Shown: one piece after another, positions 3,153-16,775 of the stretch
Numbering within the stretch: the first letter of the stretch is position 1
Layout: each line of letters opens with the position of its first letter
Virus record (IMG/VR): IMGVR_UViG_3300044971_004086
Span: 1-20,905 of that record
Source of the DNA: a virus
DNA: 20,905 bases
Strand: one strand, 5' to 3'
Translations under genes and position numbers: made by a program
The notes under the pieces: generated by a model
Seen by the model: only the letters and a program-made list of their open reading frames with translations
Told to the model about the DNA's origin: nothing
Databases searched by the model: none

Positions 3153-3806
3153 CTAGTTATATTTATCATCAAAGACATATAGGGTATCAGCACCAGATTT
3201 GCCCTTCACTTCATATCCAAGGCCGATAAGGAAGTCGCATACGTCTTGAACATGACCATTTTCACAAGAAATTGATGGCTTGAAGCGCTTGATTGTTTCG
3301 ATAGCACCTTGAAGGATCTTACCCTCATAGCCCTCAACATCAAGCTGAATGAATCCACAATTGTCTAAATTGAACGAGTCCAGAGTAAGCATAGGAACGT
3401 GTGAGATCTCTTGATCTAGATTTTCTACAACTGTATGAGTGCCTACATTTGAGAAGCCACCTCTTGCAACAGAGATCAGCTTGTTTTCGGCACCAAGAGC
3501 AGCCTGGAACTTATAGACGTTGTTTAGCTGGTTGTTATTGACCAAGCAGTGGAAGTTCAGTGGATCAGGCTCAAATGTGTAGACCCGCTTGAAGTGTTGT
3601 GCAAGTAGGCGTGGATACATTCCACAATTGCCCCCTGCCTGGACTACAACTTCAAGGTTTCTTGCATTTTCAATCCACAAGTGCTTGTGTGCCCTTTCCC
3701 AATCATCTTTAGGGCCATCCCAGGCCCCATCATCTTGTTTCACCCATAGCCAAGGAGAGAGACCATCGACTGGAGTGTCTCTAAACTTCAAAAGATCATC
3801 ATACAT
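3153..3806 (-). CDS. FkbM-family SAM-dependent methyltransferase
   Basis: 217 residues. The Rossmann-fold SAM-binding loop is VVVQAGGNCGMYPRLLA (53-69), followed by VYTFEPDPLNFHCLVNN (75-91) and FIQLDVEGYEGKILQGA (152-168), which is the characteristic FkbM pattern (FEP, then LDVEG.E). Family members usually methylate hydroxyl groups of glycans or small molecules; the phage substrate cannot be read from the sequence. The usual first-motif aspartate is replaced by glutamine (VQAGGN instead of vDvGaN), which is unusual but need not abolish SAM binding. It lies directly after the structural gene 3810-5129 and carries the promoter of the next unit in its 3' end. Modification of a virion or host surface glycan is plausible. 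Confidence 0.8.
   Translation of the reverse strand: MYDDLLKFRDTPVDGLSPWLWVKQDDGAWDGPKDDWERAHKHLWIENARNLEVVVQAGGNCGMYPRLLAQHFKRVYTFEPDPLNFHCLVNNNQLNNVYKFQAALGAENKLISVARGGFSNVGTHTVVENLDQEISHVPMLTLDSFNLDNCGFIQLDVEGYEGKILQGAIETIKRFKPSISCENGHVQDVCDFLIGLGYEVKGKSGADTLYVFDDKYN
3160..3167 (-). promoter_or_regulatory. Candidate late promoter GATAAATA for the lysis-side unit
   Basis: Minus-strand GATAAATA, 7 of 8 matches to TATAAATA, inside the last codons of the FkbM gene. The start near 3154 gives a 20-base leader with GAGGGAG before the ATG at 3134. It could drive everything from 3134 down to the holin. Confidence 0.5.
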
Positions 3807-6175: not shown

Positions 6176-6210
6176 AAAGAAAAAGCCCCAGGAGCAGAAC
6201 CCCTGGGGCT
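6176..6210 (-). terminator. Rho-independent terminator of the small early gene
   Basis: A 9-bp GC-rich stem (AGCCCCAGG at 6184-6192 with CCTGGGGCT at 6202-6210) around a 9-base loop. On the minus strand it is followed by TTTTCTTT. It lies 16 bases after the stop of the gene at 6227-6448 and isolates that gene from the late unit starting at 6147. Confidence 0.85.
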
Positions 6211-6226
6211 GTTTAGCTTGTAAGTG

Positions 6227-6448
6227 TCACATTCCTAGATGACGAGTCTTAAATTCAAGAGGCTGACCGCTTCCATAGTCATTGCGAAGAAACTCTTCAA
6301 ACATCTCGAAGCGGAATGCAGCGTCTTCCAGCCCTTCCTTCTCAAGAGCAGCTCTTGCACTGTGTACATAGTTGACAAGCTGCCTGAAGTCAATCTTGCT
6401 GCCATCACCAAGAGCTGCACTGTGAGTCTTACCTTTACGCTGATTCAT
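6227..6448 (-). CDS. Small protein of unknown function, likely early-expressed
   Basis: 73 residues, soluble and charged: basic N-terminus (NQRKGKTHS), then a helical, Glu/Phe/Arg-rich middle (FRQLVNYVHSARAALEKEGL, FRFEMFEEFLRNDYG). The ATG at 6448 is chosen because GGAG lies 6 bases upstream; a second ATG at 6460 has no such site. It is a single-gene transcription unit with a consensus sigma70 promoter (6478-6505) upstream and a strong terminator downstream, set between two late blocks. This layout is typical of small host-takeover or regulatory proteins. No family recognised. Confidence 0.65.
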   Translation of the reverse strand: MNQRKGKTHSAALGDGSKIDFRQLVNYVHSARAALEKEGLEDAAFRFEMFEEFLRNDYGSGQPLEFKTRHLGM

Positions 6449-6477
6449 ATATTTCTCCATCAGTAGTTGGCAGTTGC

Positions 6478-6505
6478 ATTATACACATAAGAAATTGGGT
6501 GTCAA
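6478..6505 (-). promoter_or_regulatory. Consensus sigma70 promoter (TTGACA-16-TATAAT)
   Basis: On the minus strand, TTGACA (6500-6505) and TATAAT (6478-6483) are both perfect consensus hexamers, separated by 16 bp. Transcription would start near 6471 and read the 73-residue gene. This is the only perfect host-type promoter I noticed in the window. Confidence 0.8.
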
Positions 6506-6513
6506 CATAAATA
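6506..6513 (+). promoter_or_regulatory. Candidate late promoter CATAAATA of the curli operon
   Basis: CATAAATA matches the T4 late promoter TATAAATA at 7 of 8 positions. It abuts the -35 box of the divergent sigma70 promoter. The first ATG (csgF) is 14 bases downstream, so the leader would be very short and would start close to the AGGAGG at 6518-6523. No sigma70-like promoter on the plus strand was found for this operon. Confidence 0.5.
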
Positions 6514-6527
6514 TTGCAGGAGGATCT

Positions 6528-6968
6528 ATGCGCAAAACTCTGCTCCTTGTCATGGTGTTGATCCCTTCGATCTCACAAAGTGAACCACAAACTTTTTCGT
6601 TTAAAAATCCCTCATTCAGCGGAATTGGGTACTCGTCGCACGTTCTGACCATTGAAACAATGGAATCCCAGAGAAGAGAGAAGATCAGAGCGGACGAAGA
6701 CGCAAGACGTCGTGAGGAGCAAAGAAAGATAGACAATTCAAACCTGTCAAAGTTCCTTCTGAACGTAGAAGGAAGAATCTATGCACAAATTAGCAAGCAG
6801 CTTGTAGACACAATGTTCGGCGAAAGTGCAAGCAACAGTGGGTCTGTTGTTGTCGAAGGCAACACTATTTCGTTTATCAAAGATGCTTCATCTGTCACTC
6901 TTTCTATAGTTCAACCAAACGGAAACACGACAACAGTCGAAGTTCCTATCGGCGAGTTCAAATTCTAA
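6528..6968 (+). CDS. csgF: CsgF-like curli assembly factor
   Basis: 146 residues from the ATG at 6528, chosen over the in-frame ATG at 6474 because AGGAGG sits 4 bases before it and the signal peptide starts there (MRKTLLLVMVLIPSISQS). The mature N-terminus PQTFSFKNPSFSG matches the CsgF signature (tFqFrNPnFgG) that plugs into the CsgG channel. A charged linker follows, then SNLSKFLLNVEGRIYAQI and a C-terminal domain with VVVEGNTISF. In curli systems CsgF is a periplasm-exported factor that binds the CsgG pore and positions nucleation of the fibre at the surface. The internal charged stretch (RREKIRADEDARRREEQR) is longer than I expect for E. coli CsgF. Its stop shares a base with the next start (TAATG). 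Confidence 0.85.
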   Translation: MRKTLLLVMVLIPSISQSEPQTFSFKNPSFSGIGYSSHVLTIETMESQRREKIRADEDARRREEQRKIDNSNLSKFLLNVEGRIYAQISKQLVDTMFGESASNSGSVVVEGNTISFIKDASSVTLSIVQPNGNTTTVEVPIGEFKF

Positions 6969-7753
6969 TGAAAAAGTTGTTGTTTTTGCCTCTAGCATTG
7001 CTAGTTGCATCTTGTTCTTTTGTCCCAAAATTCTATGCTCCCTCATCAATGCAGCCAGATGCCACAGTCAAAAAAGAGTTTGAAACTATTGGGGAGATAG
7101 ACGGTCCTCCAGTCGTAGTAGCTGTCTATTCCTATCTCGATAAAACTGGTCAAAGAAAGCCTAGTGATAACGTCGCTCATTTAAGCACTGCTGTCACACA
7201 AGGAGCTGATTCGTGGGTGATAAAGTCTCTTCAAGATGTTGGAAATGGAAAGTGGTTCAAAGTTGTAGAACGCGTGGGTTTAGACAACCTCATAAAAGAG
7301 AGACAGTTGATTAGAACAGCAAGAGAAGCATTTGAAGGTGAGAAGGCAAAAGAACTTAAGCCATTGCTGTTTGCAGGTGTGATTGTTGAGGGAGGAATTA
7401 TTAGTTACGACACAAACATCTCATCTGGAGGCATTGGAGCAAGATACTTGGGAATAGGTGCTTCTACACAGTATAGACAAGATGTCGTCACTGTATTCAT
7501 AAGAATGGTAAGTGTACAGACAGGCGAGATTCTTATCTCTACTGCAGTTCAAAAGACAATCCTAAGCTACAGAACACAAGCAGATGTGTTTAGATTTGTA
7601 GACATGGGCACAAAAGCAGTCGAAACTGAGGTTGGTCTTGCAATGAATGAACCAACAAACTATGCTGTAAAGGCTGCTATAGAACAGTCTGTTGTAGAGT
7701 TAATCAAAGAAGGTGAACGGAAGAAAATCTGGAAAAGAAAGGAAAACACATGA
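6968..7753 (+). CDS. csgG: CsgG-like outer-membrane curli secretion pore
   Basis: 261 residues, close to the E. coli CsgG length. A lipoprotein signal ends in VASC (C16), as expected for outer-membrane anchoring. Strong family blocks: VVVAVYSYLDKTGQRKP (49-65), WFKVVERVGLDNLIKERQLI (96-115), GGIGARYLGIGASTQY (154-169), TGEILISTAVQKTILSYRTQ (185-204) and the VFRF stretch that follows. CsgG forms a nonameric 36-strand barrel that exports curli subunits. In the loop matching the E. coli constriction (PYPASNF before STAV), this protein has PSDNVAHL, so the aromatic ring residues known there appear replaced. Coupled to csgF by TAATG and to the next gene by ATGA. Confidence 0.95.
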   Translation: MKKLLFLPLALLVASCSFVPKFYAPSSMQPDATVKKEFETIGEIDGPPVVVAVYSYLDKTGQRKPSDNVAHLSTAVTQGADSWVIKSLQDVGNGKWFKVVERVGLDNLIKERQLIRTAREAFEGEKAKELKPLLFAGVIVEGGIISYDTNISSGGIGARYLGIGASTQYRQDVVTVFIRMVSVQTGEILISTAVQKTILSYRTQADVFRFVDMGTKAVETEVGLAMNEPTNYAVKAAIEQSVVELIKEGERKKIWKRKENT

Positions 7754-8421
7754 TCAAAAACCTTTTAGTGGGTTGTTTGATTGGTTTGATGTCTAGTGCT
7801 GCACTTGCAACAGAAAGCGAAATCTATATCGAACAAACAGGAGAAGCTCTGACTCTTACAATTACACAACAGAATGGTGCTCTTAACAAGATAAACACCT
7901 CTATCAATCCTGCCATCATTAATGGTGACAACAACACAATCACTGTGATGCAGGATGGAGCAACAAACGTGTTGAATTTTGAGTTGAGAGGAAACACAAA
8001 CATTGTTGATCTAAAGCAAGAAGGTAACTCAAATACAATGGACTTAAAATGCAATGAAGGGGGAGCTTTCAATTGCACAGATGCAAACATCAAGTTCTAT
8101 GACATTGGTGACAACAATACTACTTCTGTTGTAGTGAAGCAAAATCAAATAACTGTTGATGCAACTATCACTGGAGACACGAACACAACAAACCTAACAA
8201 TGAATAGTCAGGGTGGCTCATTGACATTGACAGTGACTGGAAACACAAACACAACATCATTCAATCAATCCGGAGCTCCAGTCGTCCCACATTCTGCTGT
8301 TGTTTCACACACAGGAAACAACGGAACTCTGACGCTTGTTCAATCTGGTAATATTACTAAGACAATGAATGTGACGACAAATGGCAATAATCATACTTCT
8401 ACTATTACTCAGTCTGACTGA
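7750..8421 (+). CDS. Curlin-repeat protein (CsgA/CsgB-like fibre subunit)
   Basis: 223 residues with a Sec signal (cleavage likely after AALA, residue 20). The mature part is almost only Asn, Thr, Ser, Gly, Gln and Val, arranged in about seven units beginning [T/N/I/R]-G-[D/N]-[T/N]-N: GDNNTITVMQDGATN (59-73), GNTNIVDLKQEGNSN (81-95), GDNNTTSVVVKQ (120-131), TGDTNTTNL (141-149), TGNTNTTSFNQSG (163-175), TGNNGTLTLVQSG (188-200) and NGNNHTSTITQSD at the end. The N-x5-Q-x-G-x2-N spacing is that of curlin repeats, which stack into an amyloid beta-solenoid. Two cysteines (C101, C109) break the series and may form a disulfide loop. It is longer than CsgA. CsgG next door should export it. Whether it acts as major fibre or as nucleator is open. 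Confidence 0.8.
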   Translation: MIKNLLVGCLIGLMSSAALATESEIYIEQTGEALTLTITQQNGALNKINTSINPAIINGDNNTITVMQDGATNVLNFELRGNTNIVDLKQEGNSNTMDLKCNEGGAFNCTDANIKFYDIGDNNTTSVVVKQNQITVDATITGDTNTTNLTMNSQGGSLTLTVTGNTNTTSFNQSGAPVVPHSAVVSHTGNNGTLTLVQSGNITKTMNVTTNGNNHTSTITQSD

Positions 8422-9406
8422 AGCAAAGGCCAGTTCTATTGGTGAAATCATCCAACTGACTGGCCCAGCTCAGCTAGACAAAAAATCAGGGTCTTCTGTA
8501 GACGTATCAAAAGGGTCTCAAGTAGAATCGCTAGACACTGTTAGGACAGCTAGAGCAAGAGCCAACATTAAATTCAAAGACGAAACTCAAGTAGCAATTA
8601 CAGAGAACAGCAAGCTTATCATAGACGAATACATCTTTGATCCAAACAAAGGTGTAGGAAAGATGTCTATGAAGATAGCTCTTGGAACAGTTCGATATGC
8701 TTCTGGGGCAATTGCAAAAAACAACAACGAGAATATCAATATTCAGACTCCTGTCGCGACAGTGGGTGTCAGAGGAACATCATTCAGCATGACTGTTGAT
8801 GAGGTTGGCCAAAGTCTTGTGATTCTTCTTCCAAACAATGATGGAACGGTGGGTGAGATTAAAGTAGACACAGATGCAGGACAAGTAATCCTTAACAAAG
8901 CATTCCAATCGACGTTTGTCGCATCAAGTGAAAACAAGCCAGCCTCGCCTGTAATCCTAAACCTCAACGAATCCCAAATTAACAATCTTCTTATAGTTTC
9001 AAAGCCAGAGTCGGTAGATAAAGAAGAAGGTGGCTCACACTTTCTAAGAAACGATTTTCTAGAGTTTACAGAGTTAAACAAGACTGATCTAGACAAAGAA
9101 CTTCTTTTGTTTAATGAATTGGATATTAACAGGTTAGATGTCGATCTTCTTGCTAACGTTCTTGATGAGTTTGATAGTTCATCGGTTGGAAAGGTTGCTG
9201 GGTTCAATGCATCTACACAAATCAACACAATTCTAGAAGGGACAAACATCAAACTTGTGAGAGTGGTTAATGCCACAATGTCACTTAACATTGACAAAGA
9301 CAAGAACTACCAACTACACATAAATCAGGGTCAAGGAGACATCCCAGTTACAATTGGGGATGGTAATTCACCTTATCTGAACAACATAAGGATAATACAA
9401 AAATGA
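8381..9406 (+). CDS. Secreted FecR-domain protein
   Basis: 341 residues. A hydrophobic signal (IIILLLLLSLTEAKA) directs it to the periplasm. Residues 20-140 form a FecR domain: IQLTGPAQLD, SQVESLDTVRTARARANIKF, DETQVAITENSKLIID, IALGTVRYASG and the hallmark TPVATVGVRGTSFSMTV (123-139). There is no cytoplasmic or membrane part, unlike true FecR anti-sigma factors. The C-terminal ~190 residues are acidic, with leucine-rich DxL repeats (about 235-262), and of unknown fold. The start overlaps the curlin gene by 41 bases and the stop overlaps the cyclase start as ATGA. Secreted FecR-domain proteins are often encoded beside CHASE2 cyclases in bacteria, so it is probably the periplasmic partner or ligand of the next gene's sensor. 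Confidence 0.85.
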   Translation: MAIIILLLLLSLTEAKASSIGEIIQLTGPAQLDKKSGSSVDVSKGSQVESLDTVRTARARANIKFKDETQVAITENSKLIIDEYIFDPNKGVGKMSMKIALGTVRYASGAIAKNNNENINIQTPVATVGVRGTSFSMTVDEVGQSLVILLPNNDGTVGEIKVDTDAGQVILNKAFQSTFVASSENKPASPVILNLNESQINNLLIVSKPESVDKEEGGSHFLRNDFLEFTELNKTDLDKELLLFNELDINRLDVDLLANVLDEFDSSSVGKVAGFNASTQINTILEGTNIKLVRVVNATMSLNIDKDKNYQLHINQGQGDIPVTIGDGNSPYLNNIRIIQK

Positions 9407-11475
9407 GTTTCTTCACGTCTTGGAAGATCGTTGCTATTGTTCTACTTGGTCTTGTCGGATTGAGACTTCAGGATGGTTGGTTGGTCGAGACATTAAGACT
9501 AAAGACATTTGATTTCTATCAAATCTCTAAGAATCAAGACAAGAGTGATCAGATTTCAATTGTTGAAATAACGGACGATGACATTGATAATTTTGGCCAA
9601 TGGCCATGGCCTCGCGATAAAGTAGCATCAATTTTGGAAATGATGAAGATGTTCAAACCAGCTGCAATCGTCATGCCAATCATATTTTCGGAACCAGACA
9701 GATTTGGCAAAGACGAAGAACTTGCAGATGCACTAGAAGGAGTCATCATTGCACAAGCGCCATCAAACAAGGCTTCAAAGGTAGAAGGATCGCCAAGAGG
9801 AATTGCTATCGTAGGTCTTGATCCAAACAATTGGCTACAAAGTTTTGTTGGAATAGTACGCCCGCTCAAGATGTTTGAGGACAACGCAGCTGGTGTTGGC
9901 GTGCTTACCGCATCTGGTGAAATAGATGGTGTTGTTAGAAGAATTCCAATGGTTGTAAGAATAGGTGAATTAGACTCGCTTGTATCTCCAAAGATTTATC
10001 CTACACTGTCGCTTGAAGTCATTAGAACACTTGCTGGTGATCGTAGTTATCAAATGAAAGTTGGAATTAATGGTGTAGAATCAGTCAGAATTCCACAATT
10101 TGAAACAATCAATACAGACTCAAATGGTCGCGTTTGGATCAAGTACAACAAGGAGTTTGATAGAAGAACAATATTCCATATGGATGATATTGAAAACAAA
10201 GTAGTCATTCTTACAATTTCTGCAGAAGGATTGGCTACAAATGTACCTACACCATATGGTCTAAAGAATATTGCAGAAGTTCAAGCTGCAATGATTTCCA
10301 CATTAGTCAATGGCGATTCATTGACTAGACTTGATTACGCAGATGCATTGGAACTCGTTACTCTGACGATCATAGGTCTATTGTTCATTGTTCTTGTTCC
10401 AAGATTGATGATTTGGCAAACCATACCTTTTTATGTGGTTTCAGTTGCAGGAATCATTGGATTCTGCTTCTACATGTACGAAATGAATATTCTTTTTGAT
10501 TACTCATTTCCTTTATTTACAATTACTTTAGTCTTCTCATGGCTAGTATTCAATAACTTTGCAAGAGAGTTTAGACTAAAGCAACAGATTAAGAAGCAGT
10601 TTCAATCTTATCTTTCTAAGGAGCTAGTAGAGAAGCTTCAGAAGAATCCAAACTTGCTCAAGCTTGGAGGAGATAGCAGAGAGCTTTCTATTATGTTCAC
10701 TGATGTAAGAGGGTTTACTTCTATCAGCGAGCATTACGGAGACAATGTTCAGGGTCTCACAAACATAATGAATCGATACATGACTGCAATGACAGGAAAG
10801 ATTCTAGACAACTCTGGAACACTTGACAAGTACATTGGTGATGCTCAGATGGCATTCTGGAATGCTCCTTTGGATGACAAGCAGCATGCAAAGAATGCTG
10901 TCAAAACAGCTCTTAGCATGTTGGGAGATCTGGACGACTTTAACAAGAAGATTGCAGAGGAGGGCGTTCCTCCGTTTGGAATGGGCCTTGGAATCAACAC
11001 AGGTACGGTTGTTGTTGGCAACATGGGTAGTGATCAAAGATTCGACTACACGTGCTTAGGAGATGCAGTCAATCTAGCAAGTAGACTAGAAGGCCAGTCA
11101 AAACCTTATGGCGTAAGGATAGTGATTGGTCCTAAGACAGCTGAGTACGTTGCAGACGAGTACTTTATACTTGAACTTGATACAATTGCTGTCAAGGGCA
11201 AGAAGCAAGGTGTGAATATCTATACTGTACTTGGAACAATCAAAGAGATGGAGTTCTTGAACTATGTGCCATTCAGAGTAATGCACAACAATATGCTTGA
11301 TGATTATCGCTCACAAAAGTTTGGAAGCGCAATAATAACGTGTGAAAAATTAAAACGAGCATTCAATGGTGGAATGAAGTCATACTATCAAATGATGGCT
11401 GAAAGATGCGAAGAATACTTAAAGAATCCACCACCAGCTGATTGGGATGGAGTCTATAGAGCTACTTCAAAATGA
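9403..11475 (+). CDS. CHASE2-domain class III adenylate cyclase
   Basis: 690 residues. TM1 (about 8-22), periplasmic CHASE2 sensor (about 25-310, with VEITDDDIDNFGQWPWPR), three membrane helices (317-333, 340-358, 366-384), a linker helix, then a class III cyclase domain (425-605). Catalytic residues are present: metal-binding D434 (FTDVRGFTS) and D480 (DKYIGDAQMAF), adenine-selecting K476 and D548 (RFDYTCLGD), transition-state N557 and R561 (GDAVNLASRLEG). This predicts an active enzyme making cAMP from ATP. The C-terminal tail ends PPPADWDGVYR, as in many bacterial CHASE2 cyclases. The pattern of periplasmic sensor plus cytoplasmic catalysis fits signalling from the upstream FecR protein. 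Substrate assignment to ATP is inference from K476 and D548. Confidence 0.95.
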   Translation: MSFFTSWKIVAIVLLGLVGLRLQDGWLVETLRLKTFDFYQISKNQDKSDQISIVEITDDDIDNFGQWPWPRDKVASILEMMKMFKPAAIVMPIIFSEPDRFGKDEELADALEGVIIAQAPSNKASKVEGSPRGIAIVGLDPNNWLQSFVGIVRPLKMFEDNAAGVGVLTASGEIDGVVRRIPMVVRIGELDSLVSPKIYPTLSLEVIRTLAGDRSYQMKVGINGVESVRIPQFETINTDSNGRVWIKYNKEFDRRTIFHMDDIENKVVILTISAEGLATNVPTPYGLKNIAEVQAAMISTLVNGDSLTRLDYADALELVTLTIIGLLFIVLVPRLMIWQTIPFYVVSVAGIIGFCFYMYEMNILFDYSFPLFTITLVFSWLVFNNFAREFRLKQQIKKQFQSYLSKELVEKLQKNPNLLKLGGDSRELSIMFTDVRGFTSISEHYGDNVQGLTNIMNRYMTAMTGKILDNSGTLDKYIGDAQMAFWNAPLDDKQHAKNAVKTALSMLGDLDDFNKKIAEEGVPPFGMGLGINTGTVVVGNMGSDQRFDYTCLGDAVNLASRLEGQSKPYGVRIVIGPKTAEYVADEYFILELDTIAVKGKKQGVNIYTVLGTIKEMEFLNYVPFRVMHNNMLDDYRSQKFGSAIITCEKLKRAFNGGMKSYYQMMAERCEEYLKNPPPADWDGVYRATSK

Positions 11476-11580
11476 ACATTTGAATAATTGGAAGACAACA
11501 CCAAGAATTATTCCAAGGATGAATCCTATGAATAGTCCGCCCCACATGGCAACGATCATGTCTGATGTCTTATAGGTCAT
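11467..11580 (-). CDS. Possible 37-residue single-pass membrane peptide
   Basis: A short frame from the ATG at 11580, which overlaps the end of the upstream secreted-protein gene by 11 bases. It encodes MTYKTSDMIVAMW followed by a glycine-rich hydrophobic stretch (GGLFIGFILGIILGVVFQLF, residues 14-33) and ends in KCSF. No strong SD is seen (AAAGAAAG). Its last 9 bases overlap the end of the convergent cyclase gene. The clean N-in/TM design and the operon overlap argue for a real gene; the small size argues for caution. Confidence 0.45.
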   Translation of the reverse strand: MTYKTSDMIVAMWGGLFIGFILGIILGVVFQLFKCSF

Positions 11581-11893
11581 TTTCTTTCTTTTGAGTTATC
11601 TTGGTGTAGTCTTGTGAAATACTGATTAAGCAGCTGACTTCTTTGAAATTCTCAACAACTAGAAGTTCATCGTCCTTTAAAAGCAACAAAACGTACCCCA
11701 CTATCCTATCAGTATTATCAAGAACAATTGTAGATTTTCCTATGATTCTATAGTCATCTTTTTTCAGTTGCTCTAGTACTGTCCTTGTTTCACCACACAA
11801 CACCGGCTTTGGTCGCCACATCATCTCTTCTTGAGCGTGTGCTCTGGCGCCAAAAAGCGCCAGAGCTATTGCACATACTATAACGTTTTTCAT
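11570..11893 (-). CDS. Small secreted periplasmic protein, unknown
   Basis: 107 residues. A clear Sec signal (MKNVIVCAIALALFGARAHA, cleavage after residue 20) is followed by QEEMMWRPKPVLCGETRTVLEQLKK. Two cysteines remain in the mature part (CGET near the start and SCLIS near the end) and could form a disulfide. The pattern CG.T..vL..L......igkS with a later Cys resembles short secreted proteins of marine phages and bacteria, though I cannot name the family. Its ATG shares a base with the stop of the autotransporter-like gene (TAATG), so it is translationally coupled to it. A periplasmic helper or quality-control role for the outer-membrane protein is inference only. Confidence 0.7.
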   Translation of the reverse strand: MKNVIVCAIALALFGARAHAQEEMMWRPKPVLCGETRTVLEQLKKDDYRIIGKSTIVLDNTDRIVGYVLLLLKDDELLVVENFKEVSCLISISQDYTKITQKKENDL

Positions 11894-13794
11894 TAGAATA
11901 CAATCCTTATTTGCGCACCTATGATGTTATTTACCACACCATCTTTCTCTTGTACTGCATATTTTAGCAGAATAGATGCACTAGGATCAAATGAGTAGTT
12001 AAATCCCCCAAAGATAGTTTTGGTCTTTGTTGTTTCCAATACTCCCTCAACAACAGCCGTCAAGTCGTTTATTATTTCCTGTTCGTATCGCAATCCACCA
12101 TGACCAGAAGTGATAAAGTCCTTTCTAGCAGCATGATTGACTGCTGTTACAGAAGAACCACTTTCAAAAATGTTATTTCTATAGTCGTATTCAAATTTGA
12201 TCCCTGCAAAAGGTCTAAATCCATAATTATCTGGAGCATACACTCTATTGACAAACCAGACATCGTGGCCAGAAGTTTCTGCTGTGTTTGACAAACTTAA
12301 GTCGCGAATGAAATGATGAGTTTCAAACTCATTGTATGCTGTGCCGAGATTTGTCTTCAATAGCCAATCCTCATAAGACTTTAGCGCGAAGAAGTCTATT
12401 GAATACTTTCTAAGTTCACCACCAGACGCATCTCCTCTAAGATCAGTGACGCCAATGTTTAGCTGACCACCTAGCAATAAAGAATCGTTATACTTTTCTT
12501 CATATCCAATGCCAAAGACATTTGTCGTATACTTGTAAGTGTCCTTGGTACCAGATCGAAGAGAATAACCAGTCACATAGACTTGAGATTGCTTTGTAGG
12601 ATCACTTCTATTCGTAATCTTGTCATTTGCAACCTTGTTTCTTGATAGAGGATCTGTCAATGAGTTTTCATTTTGTAGAGTGCTAATCTTATCAAGCTTT
12701 GCAATTTGATCAATGCGTGTGCCAAAAACAGTGTTCACAGGAGTAGTTATTACTTCGTTTGTTGTTGAAGTTGCAGTCAAAACTTCATTAATTACCGATG
12801 TTGTTGTTACCGGCGATCCATTTACCGTAGTTGTGGAACCATCACTCCATGTCTGGATTGTAGATGGTGTTGTTACTGTTGTTGTTGTGATGGGTGTAGT
12901 GCTTGTGACTACAGTTGTGATTGGTGTTGTTGCAACAGTCGTAATGTTTCTGTTTACAGAAAGTATCTGCTCTCGTCTTGTTGGTGTAAGTGTTGTTGTT
13001 GAAACAGAGTTTGTTGTTCCTCGTGTACTTACACTTGTTGTAGTCGTTTCCCCACGGTTTGACAAGGAAGACACAGCGTCTGGGCCTGGGGCTGTGCTTA
13101 CAATTGTTGGTGATGGATTGCCTGCTGCTGCACCTTGAGCTGGTGTGGCAAGAGTTGTAAAACCTACATTACTAGGTATTGTGCACGATGCTACAGCAAT
13201 CGATGTGTCTGCGCATGGACCAGCATAAACACCAAGTTGCACAGAACTACCATTGCTTGTGTGGTTACCAGAAACTTCAAAACTTAATGTGTAAATTGTA
13301 TTCGATAGTAGGTCTATACCTTGGTAGATACCATCAAATGTTCCGACAGCACCATCATACCAGACACCACCATGTGATCCACCGATGTCTTGCCAAGTTC
13401 CTGCAGCTGCTGGATACGTTCCGTTCTGATACCAAACACCCCAGTTAGTAGGGGCTTGTATTGTGCCTGGTCCATTATTTGTCGTGATGCTGATTGCACC
13501 ACCAGAACTAAATCCTCCATTTGTAAGAAGATTTGTAGAAGATCCTGGAGCCGTCAGAGTTACATTATCAAACGTCCAAAAAGCAGGATCTTGTCTGAAT
13601 GCAAAACCAACGTAGTTTGAGCCAGAGATACTTGGGGTGAAAGAATACGAATAAGGCTGCCACGTGTTTGGCGTGTTATTCGTTACAATTCCAATATATC
13701 CACTTGGAAGAACTTGTGATAATGCAATTGATGTTGTTAGTAATGTGACAAAAAGTAGAAGGCTATTCAGTATCCTTCTTGTCTTTATTTGCAT
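11893..13794 (-). CDS. Autotransporter-like outer-membrane protein, lectin-like passenger
   Basis: 633 residues. Sec signal at 1-27; a beta-rich passenger (about 30-210) whose blocks TWQPYSYSF, FWTFDNVTLT, NLLTNGGFSSGG, FDGIYQGIDL and YTLSFEVSGNHTSNG resemble jelly-roll carbohydrate-binding folds; a Thr/Ser/Val-rich linker (230-355) with runs such as TTTTSVSTRGTTNSVSTTT; a short helix (RIDQIAKLDKISTLQNEN, 360-377) like the alpha-helix that sits in an autotransporter pore; and a C-terminal domain (about 400-633) of alternating amphipathic strands (VFGIGYEEKYNDSLLLGGQL, FRPFAGIKFEYDYR) ending in the outer-membrane signature ...QIRIVF with terminal Phe. Predicted to display its passenger on the host surface. 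It overlaps the upstream small membrane gene by 32 bases. The passenger ligand is unknown. Confidence 0.8.
   Translation of the reverse strand: MQIKTRRILNSLLLFVTLLTTSIALSQVLPSGYIGIVTNNTPNTWQPYSYSFTPSISGSNYVGFAFRQDPAFWTFDNVTLTAPGSSTNLLTNGGFSSGGAISITTNNGPGTIQAPTNWGVWYQNGTYPAAAGTWQDIGGSHGGVWYDGAVGTFDGIYQGIDLLSNTIYTLSFEVSGNHTSNGSSVQLGVYAGPCADTSIAVASCTIPSNVGFTTLATPAQGAAAGNPSPTIVSTAPGPDAVSSLSNRGETTTTSVSTRGTTNSVSTTTLTPTRREQILSVNRNITTVATTPITTVVTSTTPITTTTVTTPSTIQTWSDGSTTTVNGSPVTTTSVINEVLTATSTTNEVITTPVNTVFGTRIDQIAKLDKISTLQNENSLTDPLSRNKVANDKITNRSDPTKQSQVYVTGYSLRSGTKDTYKYTTNVFGIGYEEKYNDSLLLGGQLNIGVTDLRGDASGGELRKYSIDFFALKSYEDWLLKTNLGTAYNEFETHHFIRDLSLSNTAETSGHDVWFVNRVYAPDNYGFRPFAGIKFEYDYRNNIFESGSSVTAVNHAARKDFITSGHGGLRYEQEIINDLTAVVEGVLETTKTKTIFGGFNYSFDPSASILLKYAVQEKDGVVNNIIGAQIRIVF
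12745..13105 (-). repeat. Low-complexity Thr-codon tract encoding the passenger linker
   Basis: The coding strand of the linker is dominated by ACA/ACT/ACC threonine codons, seen on the plus strand as GTTGTT and GTGGTT-like runs. It encodes about 115 residues of mostly Thr, Ser and Val. Such tracts tend to vary in length and would also explain the spurious open frame on the opposite strand. Confidence 0.6.
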
Positions 13795-14023
13795 ATGTCT
13801 CCCTCATCATTAGAACGATGTTTATTTTTTGATTGAGTCTAATCAAATCATTGTCCAACATTCTAACGCGGTCGATCAATGCAATCAGGACTGTGTTTGC
13901 TTCAGATAACACAGGTTTGATTTCTGCTGTAGCCCATTTCCAAACGTAGAAAATCAAGTAACCCATACCGCCAGCAGCGACGATAGGAAATCCGTATTTG
14001 TTGATTAGTTGTACTATATCCAT
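13763..14023 (-). CDS. Small membrane protein, paralogue B of a tandem pair
   Basis: 86 residues. MDIVQLINKYGFPIVAAGGM leads into one membrane helix (about 12-30), followed by a charged amphipathic region ALIDRVRMLDNDLIRLNQKI (48-67). The plan (short helix, GFPI, glycine-rich TM, then D/N-R-x-x-x-x-x-x-D-I/L-x-R-I/L) is repeated in the gene just upstream (14026-14310). The size and layout recall YvrJ- or BhlA-type small phage holin-like proteins, but no family match is claimed. A good AAAGGA lies before the ATG at 14023. The end overlaps the autotransporter-like gene by 32 bases. Confidence 0.65.
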   Translation of the reverse strand: MDIVQLINKYGFPIVAAGGMGYLIFYVWKWATAEIKPVLSEANTVLIALIDRVRMLDNDLIRLNQKINIVLMMRETYANKDKKDTE

Positions 14024-14025
14024 GT

Positions 14026-14310
14026 TCAGTCCTTTCTTGCATCGTTTTTACCGTCAGCTCTTGCGAGTCTGTCGGTATCAGGTCTGACATGTAGTGCTGT
14101 TGAAATCAAAGTGTCAATTCTGACGATGTCGTGATTCATAGTCTTGACGCGATTGTCAAGAGCCATGATAATTCCACTCAATCCCTTCACTGAACTTTGA
14201 ACGCCGGCGAGAATAAACTTTAGCGTAAGAAAAACAAAGTATCCGCCTGCTATTGAAGATGCAATTGGAAATCCAACTTCCGCCACCAGCTTGAAGAATT
14301 CTGCTTCCAT
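14026..14310 (-). CDS. Small membrane protein, paralogue A of a tandem pair
   Basis: 94 residues. MEAEFFKLVAEVGFPIASSI leads into a membrane helix (about 14-36, AGGYFVFLTLKFILAGV), then ALDNRVKTMNHDIVRIDTLI (50-69) and a charged tail ending NDARKD. It shares GFPI, the glycine-rich start of the TM and the D-N/D-R-V-x-x-x-x-x-D-I/L-x-R pattern with the next gene. A GGGGGT SD precedes the ATG. It is the first gene of the minus-strand unit that ends in the small peptide at 11467. Possible roles are a holin-like pore, a membrane scaffold for the outer-membrane protein, or a tail-associated membrane protein; none can be chosen from the sequence. Confidence 0.65.
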   Translation of the reverse strand: MEAEFFKLVAEVGFPIASSIAGGYFVFLTLKFILAGVQSSVKGLSGIIMALDNRVKTMNHDIVRIDTLISTALHVRPDTDRLARADGKNDARKD

Positions 14311-14342: not shown

Positions 14343-14348
14343 TTTAGT
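14341..14348 (-). promoter_or_regulatory. Candidate late promoter ACTAAATA
   Basis: ACTAAATA on the minus strand matches TATAAATA at 6 of 8 positions and overlaps the stop region of the 14344-14955 gene. The start would be near 14334, giving a leader of about 24 bases to the ATG at 14310. The same octamer precedes the metallopeptidase gene (18598-18605). Confidence 0.4.
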
Positions 14349-14955
14349 TGACTCCAAGTCCCTTTCTGACGTCATCGTACAGGGACTTGGCGTGCTTCTC
14401 AGAAACATGAGGAGGAACACCTTTTTTGAACTCGTCAAAATTTCCATTGGCGGCATGTTCACGCATTTTAGAGGCTGACATTCCTTCGACACCCTCGGCA
14501 TCTGGATCTCTTTGACCTGCAGAAACTACATCAATTTTCTTAAAATTGAACTCAGCCTTTTCGTGAGTTCCATTGTACTTGTTCAGCAGATTTCTGTATT
14601 CATCTACCCTATCAGACCCAGCAACCATTGTCAAATGATTATGGCCAGCTTGAAAAAGACGCTTGGCATGATGAATAAGTGAAGGAGCTTCTTTGCTAGA
14701 TCCTACAATGTTTGCCCCTGGAAAGAATCTCTTTGCATGCTTGATTTTATCTTCCTGTGAAAGAGGGTTTTTCTTTGGATCTTGAGAGTGAGAGACAATT
14801 ATTTCATGTGGGGCTTTTTGCTTCTCAGCAACTTCTTTCACCTTGTCTACCAGCTTACTATGACCTGTAGTGGGAGGATTCATTCTCCCAAACGTCATCA
14901 CGACTGGTTTAAGATCACTGTTTTCTAAGATGAATGCTAAGAATTTCTTAATCAT
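14344..14955 (-). CDS. HIGH-superfamily nucleotidyltransferase, possibly capsid-targeted
   Basis: 203 residues from the ATG at 14955, which forms an ATGA overlap with the upstream stop; an ATG four codons earlier is possible. Catalytic blocks: VVMTFGRMNPPTTGHSKLVD (18-37) with the (G)xxNPPTxGH nucleotide-binding signature, VAGSDRVDEY (111-120) and MSASKMREHA (159-168), equivalent to the ISSTxxR motif. The family transfers NMP from an NTP, for example in NMN, pantetheine-phosphate or CTP:alcohol reactions; the substrate is not decided here, though NMN adenylyltransferase-like is plausible. The N-terminus MIKKFLAFILENSDL carries the tag described for 5131-6147, with a possible cut after ILE. 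Coupled to the ligase-like gene upstream. Confidence 0.8.
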   Translation of the reverse strand: MIKKFLAFILENSDLKPVVMTFGRMNPPTTGHSKLVDKVKEVAEKQKAPHEIIVSHSQDPKKNPLSQEDKIKHAKRFFPGANIVGSSKEAPSLIHHAKRLFQAGHNHLTMVAGSDRVDEYRNLLNKYNGTHEKAEFNFKKIDVVSAGQRDPDAEGVEGMSASKMREHAANGNFDEFKKGVPPHVSEKHAKSLYDDVRKGLGVN

Positions 14956-16157
14956 TTTTGCTGCCATTCCTTTGGACGGAGGAAGTTAGCTTTTGCAAAC
15001 TCACCTCTATTAACCAATTTGGTTACTCTGTTTTTGTGCTGTACGACATATCCCTCAGGATCTGTTCCATTACCGTCAATTGTCTGTTTCATTTGGCTTT
15101 GCTTTTGATTAGCAGTGTTTAGACCCTTTATTAACAGATTCTTCGCAGACTGAATGTGATGATGAATCTGAAGTGCCTTTGCAAATGACTTCTCGTGTGT
15201 GTCGTGAAGTGCAAGAGCATTGTTCATTGCCTGAGTCTTATTAGCCTTGCCCTTCTCAGACTTCATTTTGTCAACTTCGTTTGACATTCTTGATTTGATG
15301 TGTTCTCTCAGACCAGCAGTAGTTGGCTTCTCGCCAGTACGTACAGTCTTGTTAATGTATGTTTCCAGATGATCAGCATGCTGGTCAATAATATCGTGGT
15401 GTGTAGAAGAAAGGCCGTTGTGAATTTCTTGAGCCTTTTTAATGTGGTCGTCAACCTTAGCATGTTCTTCTTTTGAAAGATGGGCACCCCTTTCGATCTT
15501 TGTTTCTGGTGAAATCATGTGAACGTCTGCGTGAGGCTTGAACACAGAATGATCCTGAATAGGTGCAGCCCTCATTGTTTCTGGCTGATCAGGATTGCCA
15601 TGAATTTCAGTATGAACAGCAATACCAACCTTAGACTTTACAGCCTTTTTTCCCTCTGAGGTATCCTTGCCAATATGATAGGTGATTGTATTTGGCTTGA
15701 AAGAAACTTCACGATCAGTGTGTTTCAGATCACCGTGGTCATGCATCAAGTCGCCCTGATACATTCCCTTTTTAGGAGCAACCTTTGACAGATGCTCAAA
15801 CGCATTGTGCATCTTCTGTGAAAGCCCAGGATTGTGACCAAAGTGCTGATCAATTTCAGCATGTGAAGAAGCAAATTTAGGTGTCTTGGCAAACGCACCG
15901 TGCTTGGTCGTCACGAAGAATTTGCCTGTCGTTGGATGATGGCCAAATACAATTGCTGGTGCACCATCAAGCTTTGTTGAGACGTGGCTGTCTTCAAACG
16001 ATCCAGTCTTTAGACCGTTTTGAACAGAGCGTAGGGTAGATACAGCATGTTCAAATCCATGCTGACTCTTGATGGCATTATCTTCCGGATGATCCTGGTG
16101 CTTTGCATAGGCGACTTCGTCAGAAGATTCCATTAAAAACGACTTGAATGAGCGCAC
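14952..16157 (-). CDS. KxDG nucleotidyltransferase (ligase-like), possibly capsid-targeted
   Basis: 401 residues from a GTG at 16157 with AGGAG 6 bases upstream. The N-terminal tag MRSFKSFLMESSDE has a possible gp21-type cut after LME. Then come motifs of the covalent nucleotidyltransferase superfamily in order: motif I HVSTKLDGAPAIVFG with nucleophile K62, KGMYQGDLMHD (130-140) near motif III, and DPEGYVVQHKNRVTKLVN (366-383) with E368-G and K380 at motifs IV-V. This order fits RNA/DNA ligases or capping-type enzymes. Between motifs III and IV is a long His/Lys-rich helical insert (about 200-350). I recall similar DUF6267-type proteins in marine phages without assigned activity. The gene follows the transporter terminator and overlaps the nucleotidyltransferase gene by ATGA. 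Confidence 0.65.
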   Translation of the reverse strand: MRSFKSFLMESSDEVAYAKHQDHPEDNAIKSQHGFEHAVSTLRSVQNGLKTGSFEDSHVSTKLDGAPAIVFGHHPTTGKFFVTTKHGAFAKTPKFASSHAEIDQHFGHNPGLSQKMHNAFEHLSKVAPKKGMYQGDLMHDHGDLKHTDREVSFKPNTITYHIGKDTSEGKKAVKSKVGIAVHTEIHGNPDQPETMRAAPIQDHSVFKPHADVHMISPETKIERGAHLSKEEHAKVDDHIKKAQEIHNGLSSTHHDIIDQHADHLETYINKTVRTGEKPTTAGLREHIKSRMSNEVDKMKSEKGKANKTQAMNNALALHDTHEKSFAKALQIHHHIQSAKNLLIKGLNTANQKQSQMKQTIDGNGTDPEGYVVQHKNRVTKLVNRGEFAKANFLRPKEWQQK

Positions 16158-16223: not shown

Positions 16224-16775
16224 TTATTCTGCTTTAGGCAGCTTATTCTCAATCAACTTGAGGAAGAGAACTGCAAGTGCAATCATGTACGTCTTTGCAA
16301 TCAGCTGACCAACGATATACTTCTGGCTTCCAAATGCAATCTGGAGGAACAGGAAGCTGTCAACTGCCATACCAACAAGGCTTGAACCAATAGCTGCAAC
16401 AATTAGACCCTTCTTGATGAGAGGCGCATAGACAGCCGTGTCGATCAATTCTGCAACTAGAAAAGCGACAACTGAAGCGACGACAAGAGCAGGAGGAGAA
16501 AACATCCAACTAAGAACAGCACCGATGCAGATAGCGTAGATGCTGTACGTAAGACCCAAATAACGATGAGTCAAATCTCGAAGAACGAACGCAAGGCCAG
16601 CTGCAAGAACCCCACTGGCAGTGTCATAACCAAAACCAACAGGAATAAGGCAAGGTCCATTAGGAATGCAGACAGTCCCAATGTTAGACACTAGATAGTT
16701 ACTAAGAGGCACCATACCACAGAAAAGGATGAAAGAGATCCATCCAAGGTTTTTGCTATTAAGTTCAAAAGTCAT
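16224..16775 (-). CDS. Queuosine-precursor-type transporter (YhhQ/VUT family)
   Basis: 183 residues, almost entirely membrane-embedded, with about six hydrophobic segments starting at LGWISFILFCGMVPLSNYLV. Family-like features are SNYLVSN early, DTASGVLAAGLAFVLRDLTHRYLG in the second and third segments (RD.TH pattern), and LVAELIDTAVYAPL in the middle. This family (COG1738/YhhQ) takes up 7-deazaguanine precursors such as preQ0/preQ1; phages with deazaguanine-modified DNA can carry related transporters. No other queuosine or dPreQ0 genes lie in this window. AAGGAG lies 6 bases before the ATG. It ends a unit closed by the strong terminator at 16169-16203. Another small-molecule transporter of the VUT group is the alternative. 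Confidence 0.85.
   Translation of the reverse strand: MTFELNSKNLGWISFILFCGMVPLSNYLVSNIGTVCIPNGPCLIPVGFGYDTASGVLAAGLAFVLRDLTHRYLGLTYSIYAICIGAVLSWMFSPPALVVASVVAFLVAELIDTAVYAPLIKKGLIVAAIGSSLVGMAVDSFLFLQIAFGSQKYIVGQLIAKTYMIALAVLFLKLIENKLPKAE

Follow-up and report, generated by a model that had tools for sequence, protein, structure and literature searches.

FecR and a CHASE2 adenylate cyclase as candidates for sensing and signal output in a phage curli cassette

In the stretch of phage DNA analysed here (the window, a 20.9-kb fragment of 20,905 nucleotides, IMG/VR virus record IMGVR_UViG_3300044971_004086; GC content ∼41%), a gene for an exported FecR-domain protein (341 aa) and a gene for a CHASE2 adenylate cyclase (690 aa) overlap by ATGA and stand at the end of a set of curli genes. 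csgF, csgG, a curlin-repeat gene, FecR and the cyclase follow each other on the plus strand in this order, overlapping or abutting. The pairing and its location behind curli genes, as described in a first-pass annotation made from the sequence alone, were confirmed by Pfam matches of the two genes themselves and of the three upstream genes (Table 1). The curli (type VIII) set thus comprises the CsgG pore, CsgF and a curlin-repeat subunit; no match to CsgE or CsgD was obtained among the open reading frames (ORFs) scanned, which were part of those present on this fragment. Judged by its UvsX, gp41-type helicase and endolysin genes, the fragment is from a T4-type phage. We propose that sensing and signal output in a late-expressed phage curli cassette would fall to FecR and the CHASE2 cyclase: as the periplasmic input, FecR would couple the cyclase to the export of curli or the state of the fibre, and cyclic AMP (cAMP) would rise late in infection, a reading that we consider plausible and hold tentatively.

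Co-inheritance of the genes was counted in IMG/VR phage loci with full flanks. The cyclase, FecR, CsgG, CsgF and two genes for small membrane proteins were all present in 31/31 loci anchored on the cyclase, in 30/30 anchored on FecR and in 26/26 anchored on CsgG. When the small genes served as anchor, the cyclase was again found in all 31 loci, and csgG was missing from the flank in nine; in the eight of these whose records were searched csgG was located elsewhere on the record (8/8), and for the ninth, L314, the curli locus L404 is on the same contig. The cassette genes were found in ten different orders and orientations, and their linkage is therefore not simple synteny. Carrying records reach up to 364 kb, and as csgG is present on virus records of 286–364 kb (L402, L424, L425 and L303), the cassette is not confined to the ∼140-kb pelagimyophages. 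FecR and CHASE2 cyclase genes of the phage kind were also encountered on two contigs filed under a Caulobacteraceae and a Pirellulales metagenome-assembled genome (L163, which has csgF and csgG too, and L164), and these contigs are probably phage DNA binned with bacteria.

The arrangement as such is already known from Pelagibacter phage HTVC008M, from OM43 phage Melnitz and from Wittmers (2022; PMC9599517), who described pelagiphages with type VIII secretion system, FecR and adenylate cyclase genes and noted the alphaproteobacterial affinity of these genes; the window carries the same csgF, csgG, curlin, FecR and cyclase genes clustered on a phage. In the text of that study CHASE2 is not named and FecR is interpreted as a regulator of the iron-citrate type, and sibling capture and lysis control have been discussed by Zaragoza-Solas (2020; PMC7029224) and Buchholz (2022; PMC9004378). 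The first-pass annotation missed that the cassette was published, that FecR has a curlin-like tail and that the two small membrane genes are part of the unit.

FecR begins with a signal-peptide-like N-terminus and matches PF04773 (E=3e-12, residues 52–147). Its structural model, with a mean predicted local distance difference test score (pLDDT) of 82, consists of a FecR/anchoring domain (residues ∼17–204), a low-confidence linker (203–272) and a C-terminal beta module (273–341). Residues 49–204 match the signalling domain of PupR (6ovk, Z 15.2), and residues 17–112 match the cell-surface anchoring domain of MpAFP (5ix9, Z 11.3, 74/76 residues). The FecR domain match and the PupR-like fold are what one would expect of a FecIRA-type iron-citrate regulator as assumed by Wittmers (2022), but the signal peptide leads directly into the periplasmic domain, the FecR family was the sole match, no cytoplasmic anti-sigma domain with a transmembrane (TM) helix was found, and no sigma-factor or TonB-receptor gene was present among the window ORFs scanned, which makes such a regulator very unlikely.

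The last ∼50 residues of FecR contain invariant Q, I and Q positions and resemble phage fibre-protein tails, with hhalign P values of 1e-4 and 1e-3 as compared with 0.025–0.85 for the controls (CsgF, CsgG and cyclase tails, and reversed profiles). When FecR was tiled into windows, the C-terminal one alone matched the fibre tails, and none of 150 column shuffles did so (0/150). The tail pattern, which was defined post hoc, fits 50/59 phage FecRs and 0/27 bacterial FecRs located beside CHASE2 cyclases. No curlin structure matching the FecR tail was found in the PDB by sequence.

In the cyclase, a CHASE2 domain (PF05226, E=1e-38, residues 13–326, 133.6 bits against a cut-off of 26.3) is followed by a Guanylate_cyc domain (PF00211, E=5e-20, residues 427–609). 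The model (mean pLDDT 88) shows one TM helix (7–23), the CHASE2 domain, three TM helices (313–334, 337–360 and 368–400) and a class III catalytic domain, which matches the layout of CHASE2 receptors. Active-site residues were placed by alignment on Arthrospira CyaC (1wc1, ...RSDFTAIGPSVN...), and the class IIIb set was found to be complete, with the metal aspartates D434 and D480, the adenine-binding K476 and its partner T550, and the transition-state residues N557 and R561, the roles being those generally known for class III cyclases. The first-pass annotation had named the same residues except for the adenine partner, which it placed at D548; the substrate-binding Thr of class IIIb in CyaC falls on T550. 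Across 47 phage homologues D434, K476, D480 and R561 are invariant, position 550 is T, S or D, and position 548 is D in only 32. Position 557 is Asn in 33 and Ser in 14, the Ser being paired with Asp at 550 in every case; the loci of this Ser-557/Asp-550 clade include L002, L043 and L035. Nearly all of ∼53 readable bacterial CHASE2 cyclases have Asn at this position and the Ser form was found in none. The window enzyme is of the canonical (Asn) type and, as far as its residues allow a judgement, should be an active adenylate cyclase, as the first-pass annotation had supposed.

Pairing of FecR with CHASE2 is not restricted to phages. As a contig scan of genomes with the phage cyclase gave three loci only, bacterial relatives were taken by Pfam search, and in 30 of 60 alphaproteobacterial CHASE2-cyclase loci a FecR gene was located within ∼5 kb, when ∼1% would be expected by chance (176 FecR genes in 52 such genomes). 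The survey of adjacent pairs suggested in the first-pass annotation thus revealed strong co-occurrence, so that a lack of co-occurrence, named there as a refutation, does not apply; it is in agreement with the published clusters of Sinorhizobium meliloti (PMC5498481), Campylobacterota (PMC9239204) and Burkholderia, where a LysM-FecR protein and a CHASE2 kinase belong to a biofilm operon (PMC5192318). Neither csgG nor csgF was found near the 60 loci, and five curli operons of Alphaproteobacteria showed neither FecR nor a CHASE2 cyclase in their vicinity, so that a bacterial source of the complete cassette did not emerge.

These neighbourhoods bear on two other explanations. FecR could be a structural anchor only, which keeps the fibre fixed within or at the CsgG pore, with the cyclase raising host cAMP independently of FecR. 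The match to the MpAFP anchoring domain and the curlin-like tail would suit such a role, as would the few phages whose cyclase gene lies away from FecR or is oriented divergently to it; however, bacterial FecR genes adjoin CHASE2 cyclases where no curli genes are nearby, and FecR and cyclase never part by genome in the full-flank phage loci, so that we regard a pure anchor as unlikely. The first-pass annotation had further suggested that the cyclase could interfere with nucleotide-signal defences. Apart from the fact that it is a nucleotide cyclase of a phage, nothing was found to favour this, and an anti-defence device hardly comes into consideration, as the enzyme is a membrane sensor that accompanies curli and FecR genes in all full-flank loci and its closest bacterial kin reside in FecR–CHASE2 neighbourhoods.

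The history of the cyclase domains links FecR to the sensor half. The Asn or Ser (N/S) catalytic type was mapped on trees of 80 distinct phage cyclases, the motif itself being left out of the catalytic-domain tree. One change of type was required on the catalytic tree, as opposed to 14 on each of the CHASE2, FecR and CsgG trees and ∼21 with shuffled labels, which indicates repeated exchange of the catalytic half. Accordingly, CHASE2 identity within and between the N and S types was alike (0.435/0.439), whereas that of the catalytic domain differed (0.653/0.452). Relative to FecR and CsgG, the catalytic domain has thus been swapped ∼13 times beneath CHASE2. Partial distance correlation was 0.27 for FecR and CHASE2 and 0.03 for FecR and the catalytic domain.

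The two small membrane proteins, each with one hydrophobic segment, were found in exactly six of 50,697 phage records, and these are the six holding the cassette. Their median identity (∼62%) exceeds that of CsgG (55%), FecR (43%) and the cyclase (42%). No kinase domain was found in them, and a search of 289 alphaproteobacterial genomes, run without a positive control, returned no homologues. Wittmers (PMC9599517) reported one or two ‘histidine kinase’ genes ahead of csgF, a position that the small genes occupy in HTVC008M and Melnitz, and the small genes may therefore correspond to those ‘histidine kinase’ genes. An extension of the pore and lysis role proposed by Buchholz (PMC9004378) would let the curli pore and two holin-like small proteins time lysis, with cAMP as trigger or by-product. 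Both small proteins are always present, and one of them has a phage holin match (phrog_4898, E=1.4e-4), which is weak and spans 19 residues only. Holins evolve fast, unlike the small proteins, which are the best conserved members of the cassette, and the window already contains endolysin and spanin-like genes of its own; a lysis timer of this kind is thus improbable.

Late expression, also assumed in the first-pass annotation, agrees with T4-type late-promoter cores lying ahead of the operon in many homologues. The exact sequence TATAAATA does not occur in the window and the relaxed core NATAAATA matches five times, a count that is not significant, so that support for late promoters comes from the homologues. 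There, the NATAAATA core precedes csgF in 53/171 loci, the cyclase in 34/173 and the small genes in 95/391, as compared with 0.8% of random windows; it was not found before csgG or FecR (0/174 each). The true start of csgF in the window is the ATG at 6528, not the TTG at 6474. Divergent from csgF lies a compact minus-strand unit (6184–6505) with a 77-aa ORF (6227–6460), a perfect sigma-70 consensus promoter (TTGACA-16-TATAAT, 6505–6478) and a strong terminator (6210–6184), which is possibly an early gene. A search of 26 sister phage records (6 + 20), several of which are fragments, revealed no cyclic-nucleotide (cNMP)-binding domain, so that any target of cAMP would belong to the host. The rewiring of Crp-type control put forward in the first-pass annotation is possible.

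The sequence-derived part of our argument comprises the export, fold and tail of FecR, the CHASE2 domain with an intact class IIIb site, co-inheritance of the cassette and swapping of the catalytic half; from it we infer a contact between FecR and CHASE2, cyclase activity, a direction of regulation, and an effect and a target of cAMP. Located in the periplasm, either at the curli pore or at the base of the fibre, FecR would engage curlin with its tail and present the export state to CHASE2 with its FecR domain. CHASE2 in turn would release or restrain cAMP synthesis, and the cAMP would act on a receptor of the host, probably a member of the Crp family. There is precedent for CHASE2 as a restraint, in that CyaD1 lacking CHASE2 makes cAMP constitutively (PMC5498481), and for an outer-membrane input, in that the outer-membrane protein NsrA acts upstream of CHASE2 cyclases (PMC13001267). 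A more specific version, possible yet doubtful, would see an amyloid-sensing receptor in which the tailed FecR, in or at the curli pore or fibre, reports export to the CHASE2 cyclase, so that late curli assembly on a curli-less host would be converted into host-wide cAMP by way of an interchangeable catalytic module.

Several observations weigh against FecR as an export-coupled input. The FecR gene smc02177 beside the CHASE2 cyclase of S. meliloti is dispensable for the plant signal (PMC5498481), which weakens the first-pass suggestion that FecR is a direct ligand of CHASE2, while the shared compartment and the co-occurrence in phages and bacteria stand. The profile match of the FecR tail to the fibre tails is modest, and as the Pfam curlin model PF07012 gave no match to the tail at E of 1 or 5, the likeness is a resemblance and not proven family membership. 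CsgG follows CHASE2 nearly as well as FecR does (0.20), and the shared history of FecR and CHASE2 may in part reflect physical linkage, because the FecR gene adjoins that end of the cyclase gene which encodes CHASE2. Finally, Ser in place of Asn at position 557 makes the activity of the cyclases in that one phage clade uncertain.

We found no published report of a FecR/cyclase pair inseparable from curli and two small membrane proteins in full-flank phage loci, of a curlin-like tail on phage FecR that is missing from bacterial CHASE2-linked FecRs, of repeated swapping of the catalytic domain beneath CHASE2, or of FecR beside half of the alphaproteobacterial CHASE2-cyclase genes in the absence of curli. 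For the function of the curli genes that abundant ocean phages carry, the inseparable cassette offers a testable circuit in which curli export would control cAMP in the infected cell. It would also suggest a role for the FecRs beside CHASE2 receptors in many bacteria, and the compact phage systems lend themselves to reconstitution of a FecR–CHASE2 circuit. With its catalytic module exchanged repeatedly under a constant sensor, the cyclase is an unusual phage example of a swapped output.

Table 1. Features of the curli cassette and its surroundings in the window.
Feature	Position	Strand	Basis or remark
T4-type late promoter core CATAAATA	6506..6513	+	14 nt before csgF ATG 6528
csgF, curli pore accessory, signal peptide	6528..6968	+	PF10614, E=3e-14; start revised
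csgG, outer-membrane curli pore, lipobox LVASC	6968..7753	+	PF03783, E=1e-53
Curlin-repeat fibre protein	7750..8421	+	PF07012, 26.3 bits, cut-off 20.7
Exported FecR-fold protein	8381..9406	+	PF04773; model pLDDT 82; PupR Z 15.2, 5ix9 Z 11.3; tail resemblance
CHASE2 class IIIb adenylate cyclase (by residues)	9403..11475	+	TM helix 7–23, periplasmic CHASE2, three TM helices 313–400, catalytic domain 424–612
Small membrane protein 1 (86 aa), obligate companion	13763..14023	-	phrog_18771; weak holin match; co-occurrence
Small membrane protein 2 (94 aa), paralogue	14026..14310	-	phrog_18771; co-occurrence; high conservation

Between the cyclase and the small genes, the minus strand encodes a 633-aa secreted Thr/Ser-rich protein (11893–13794), which resembles an outer-membrane barrel or autotransporter, and beside it a 107-aa secreted protein (11570–11893). 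Neither had a Pfam or PHROG match, and both are kept beside the cassette in close relatives (38–87% identity). Elsewhere on the minus strand are genes for a cytidyltransferase-like protein (14344–14967; PF01467, phrog_3041), a phage-encoded membrane transporter of the Vut_1 family (16224–16775; PF02592, E=2.5e-12) and an FkbM-type methyltransferase (3153–3806; PF05050).

Among known systems, the closest are the phage cassettes themselves. Pelagiphage cassettes, including those of the HTVC023P type (PMC9599517, PMC7029224), and that of Melnitz (PMC9004378) have the same gene order as the window, and HTVC008M and Melnitz carry csgF-csgG-curlin-FecR-(second fibre gene)-cyclase, with cyclases 39–42% identical to that of the window. 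The window differs in having no second fibre gene, so that FecR and cyclase overlap directly, in the location of its small genes downstream on the opposite strand, and in its GC content of ∼41%. In bacteria, cyaD1/smc02177 of S. meliloti (PMC5498481) and the Campylobacterota clusters (PMC9239204) likewise have an exported FecR-domain protein adjoining a CHASE2 cyclase; bacterial FecR/CHASE2 neighbourhoods differ from the window in having no curli genes nearby and in their FecRs, which lack the curlin-like tail and are in many cases of far greater size. The Burkholderia BiofilmReg operon (PMC5192318) resembles the window in that a FecR protein adjoins a CHASE2 sensor, with a link to biofilm, but its output is a kinase and a response regulator and not the cAMP expected of the window system. 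The PupR/FecR signalling domain (6ovk) and the MpAFP anchoring domain (5ix9), finally, have a fold in common with the window FecR domain, which differs from the former in lacking an anti-sigma part and from the latter in not belonging to an RTX adhesin.

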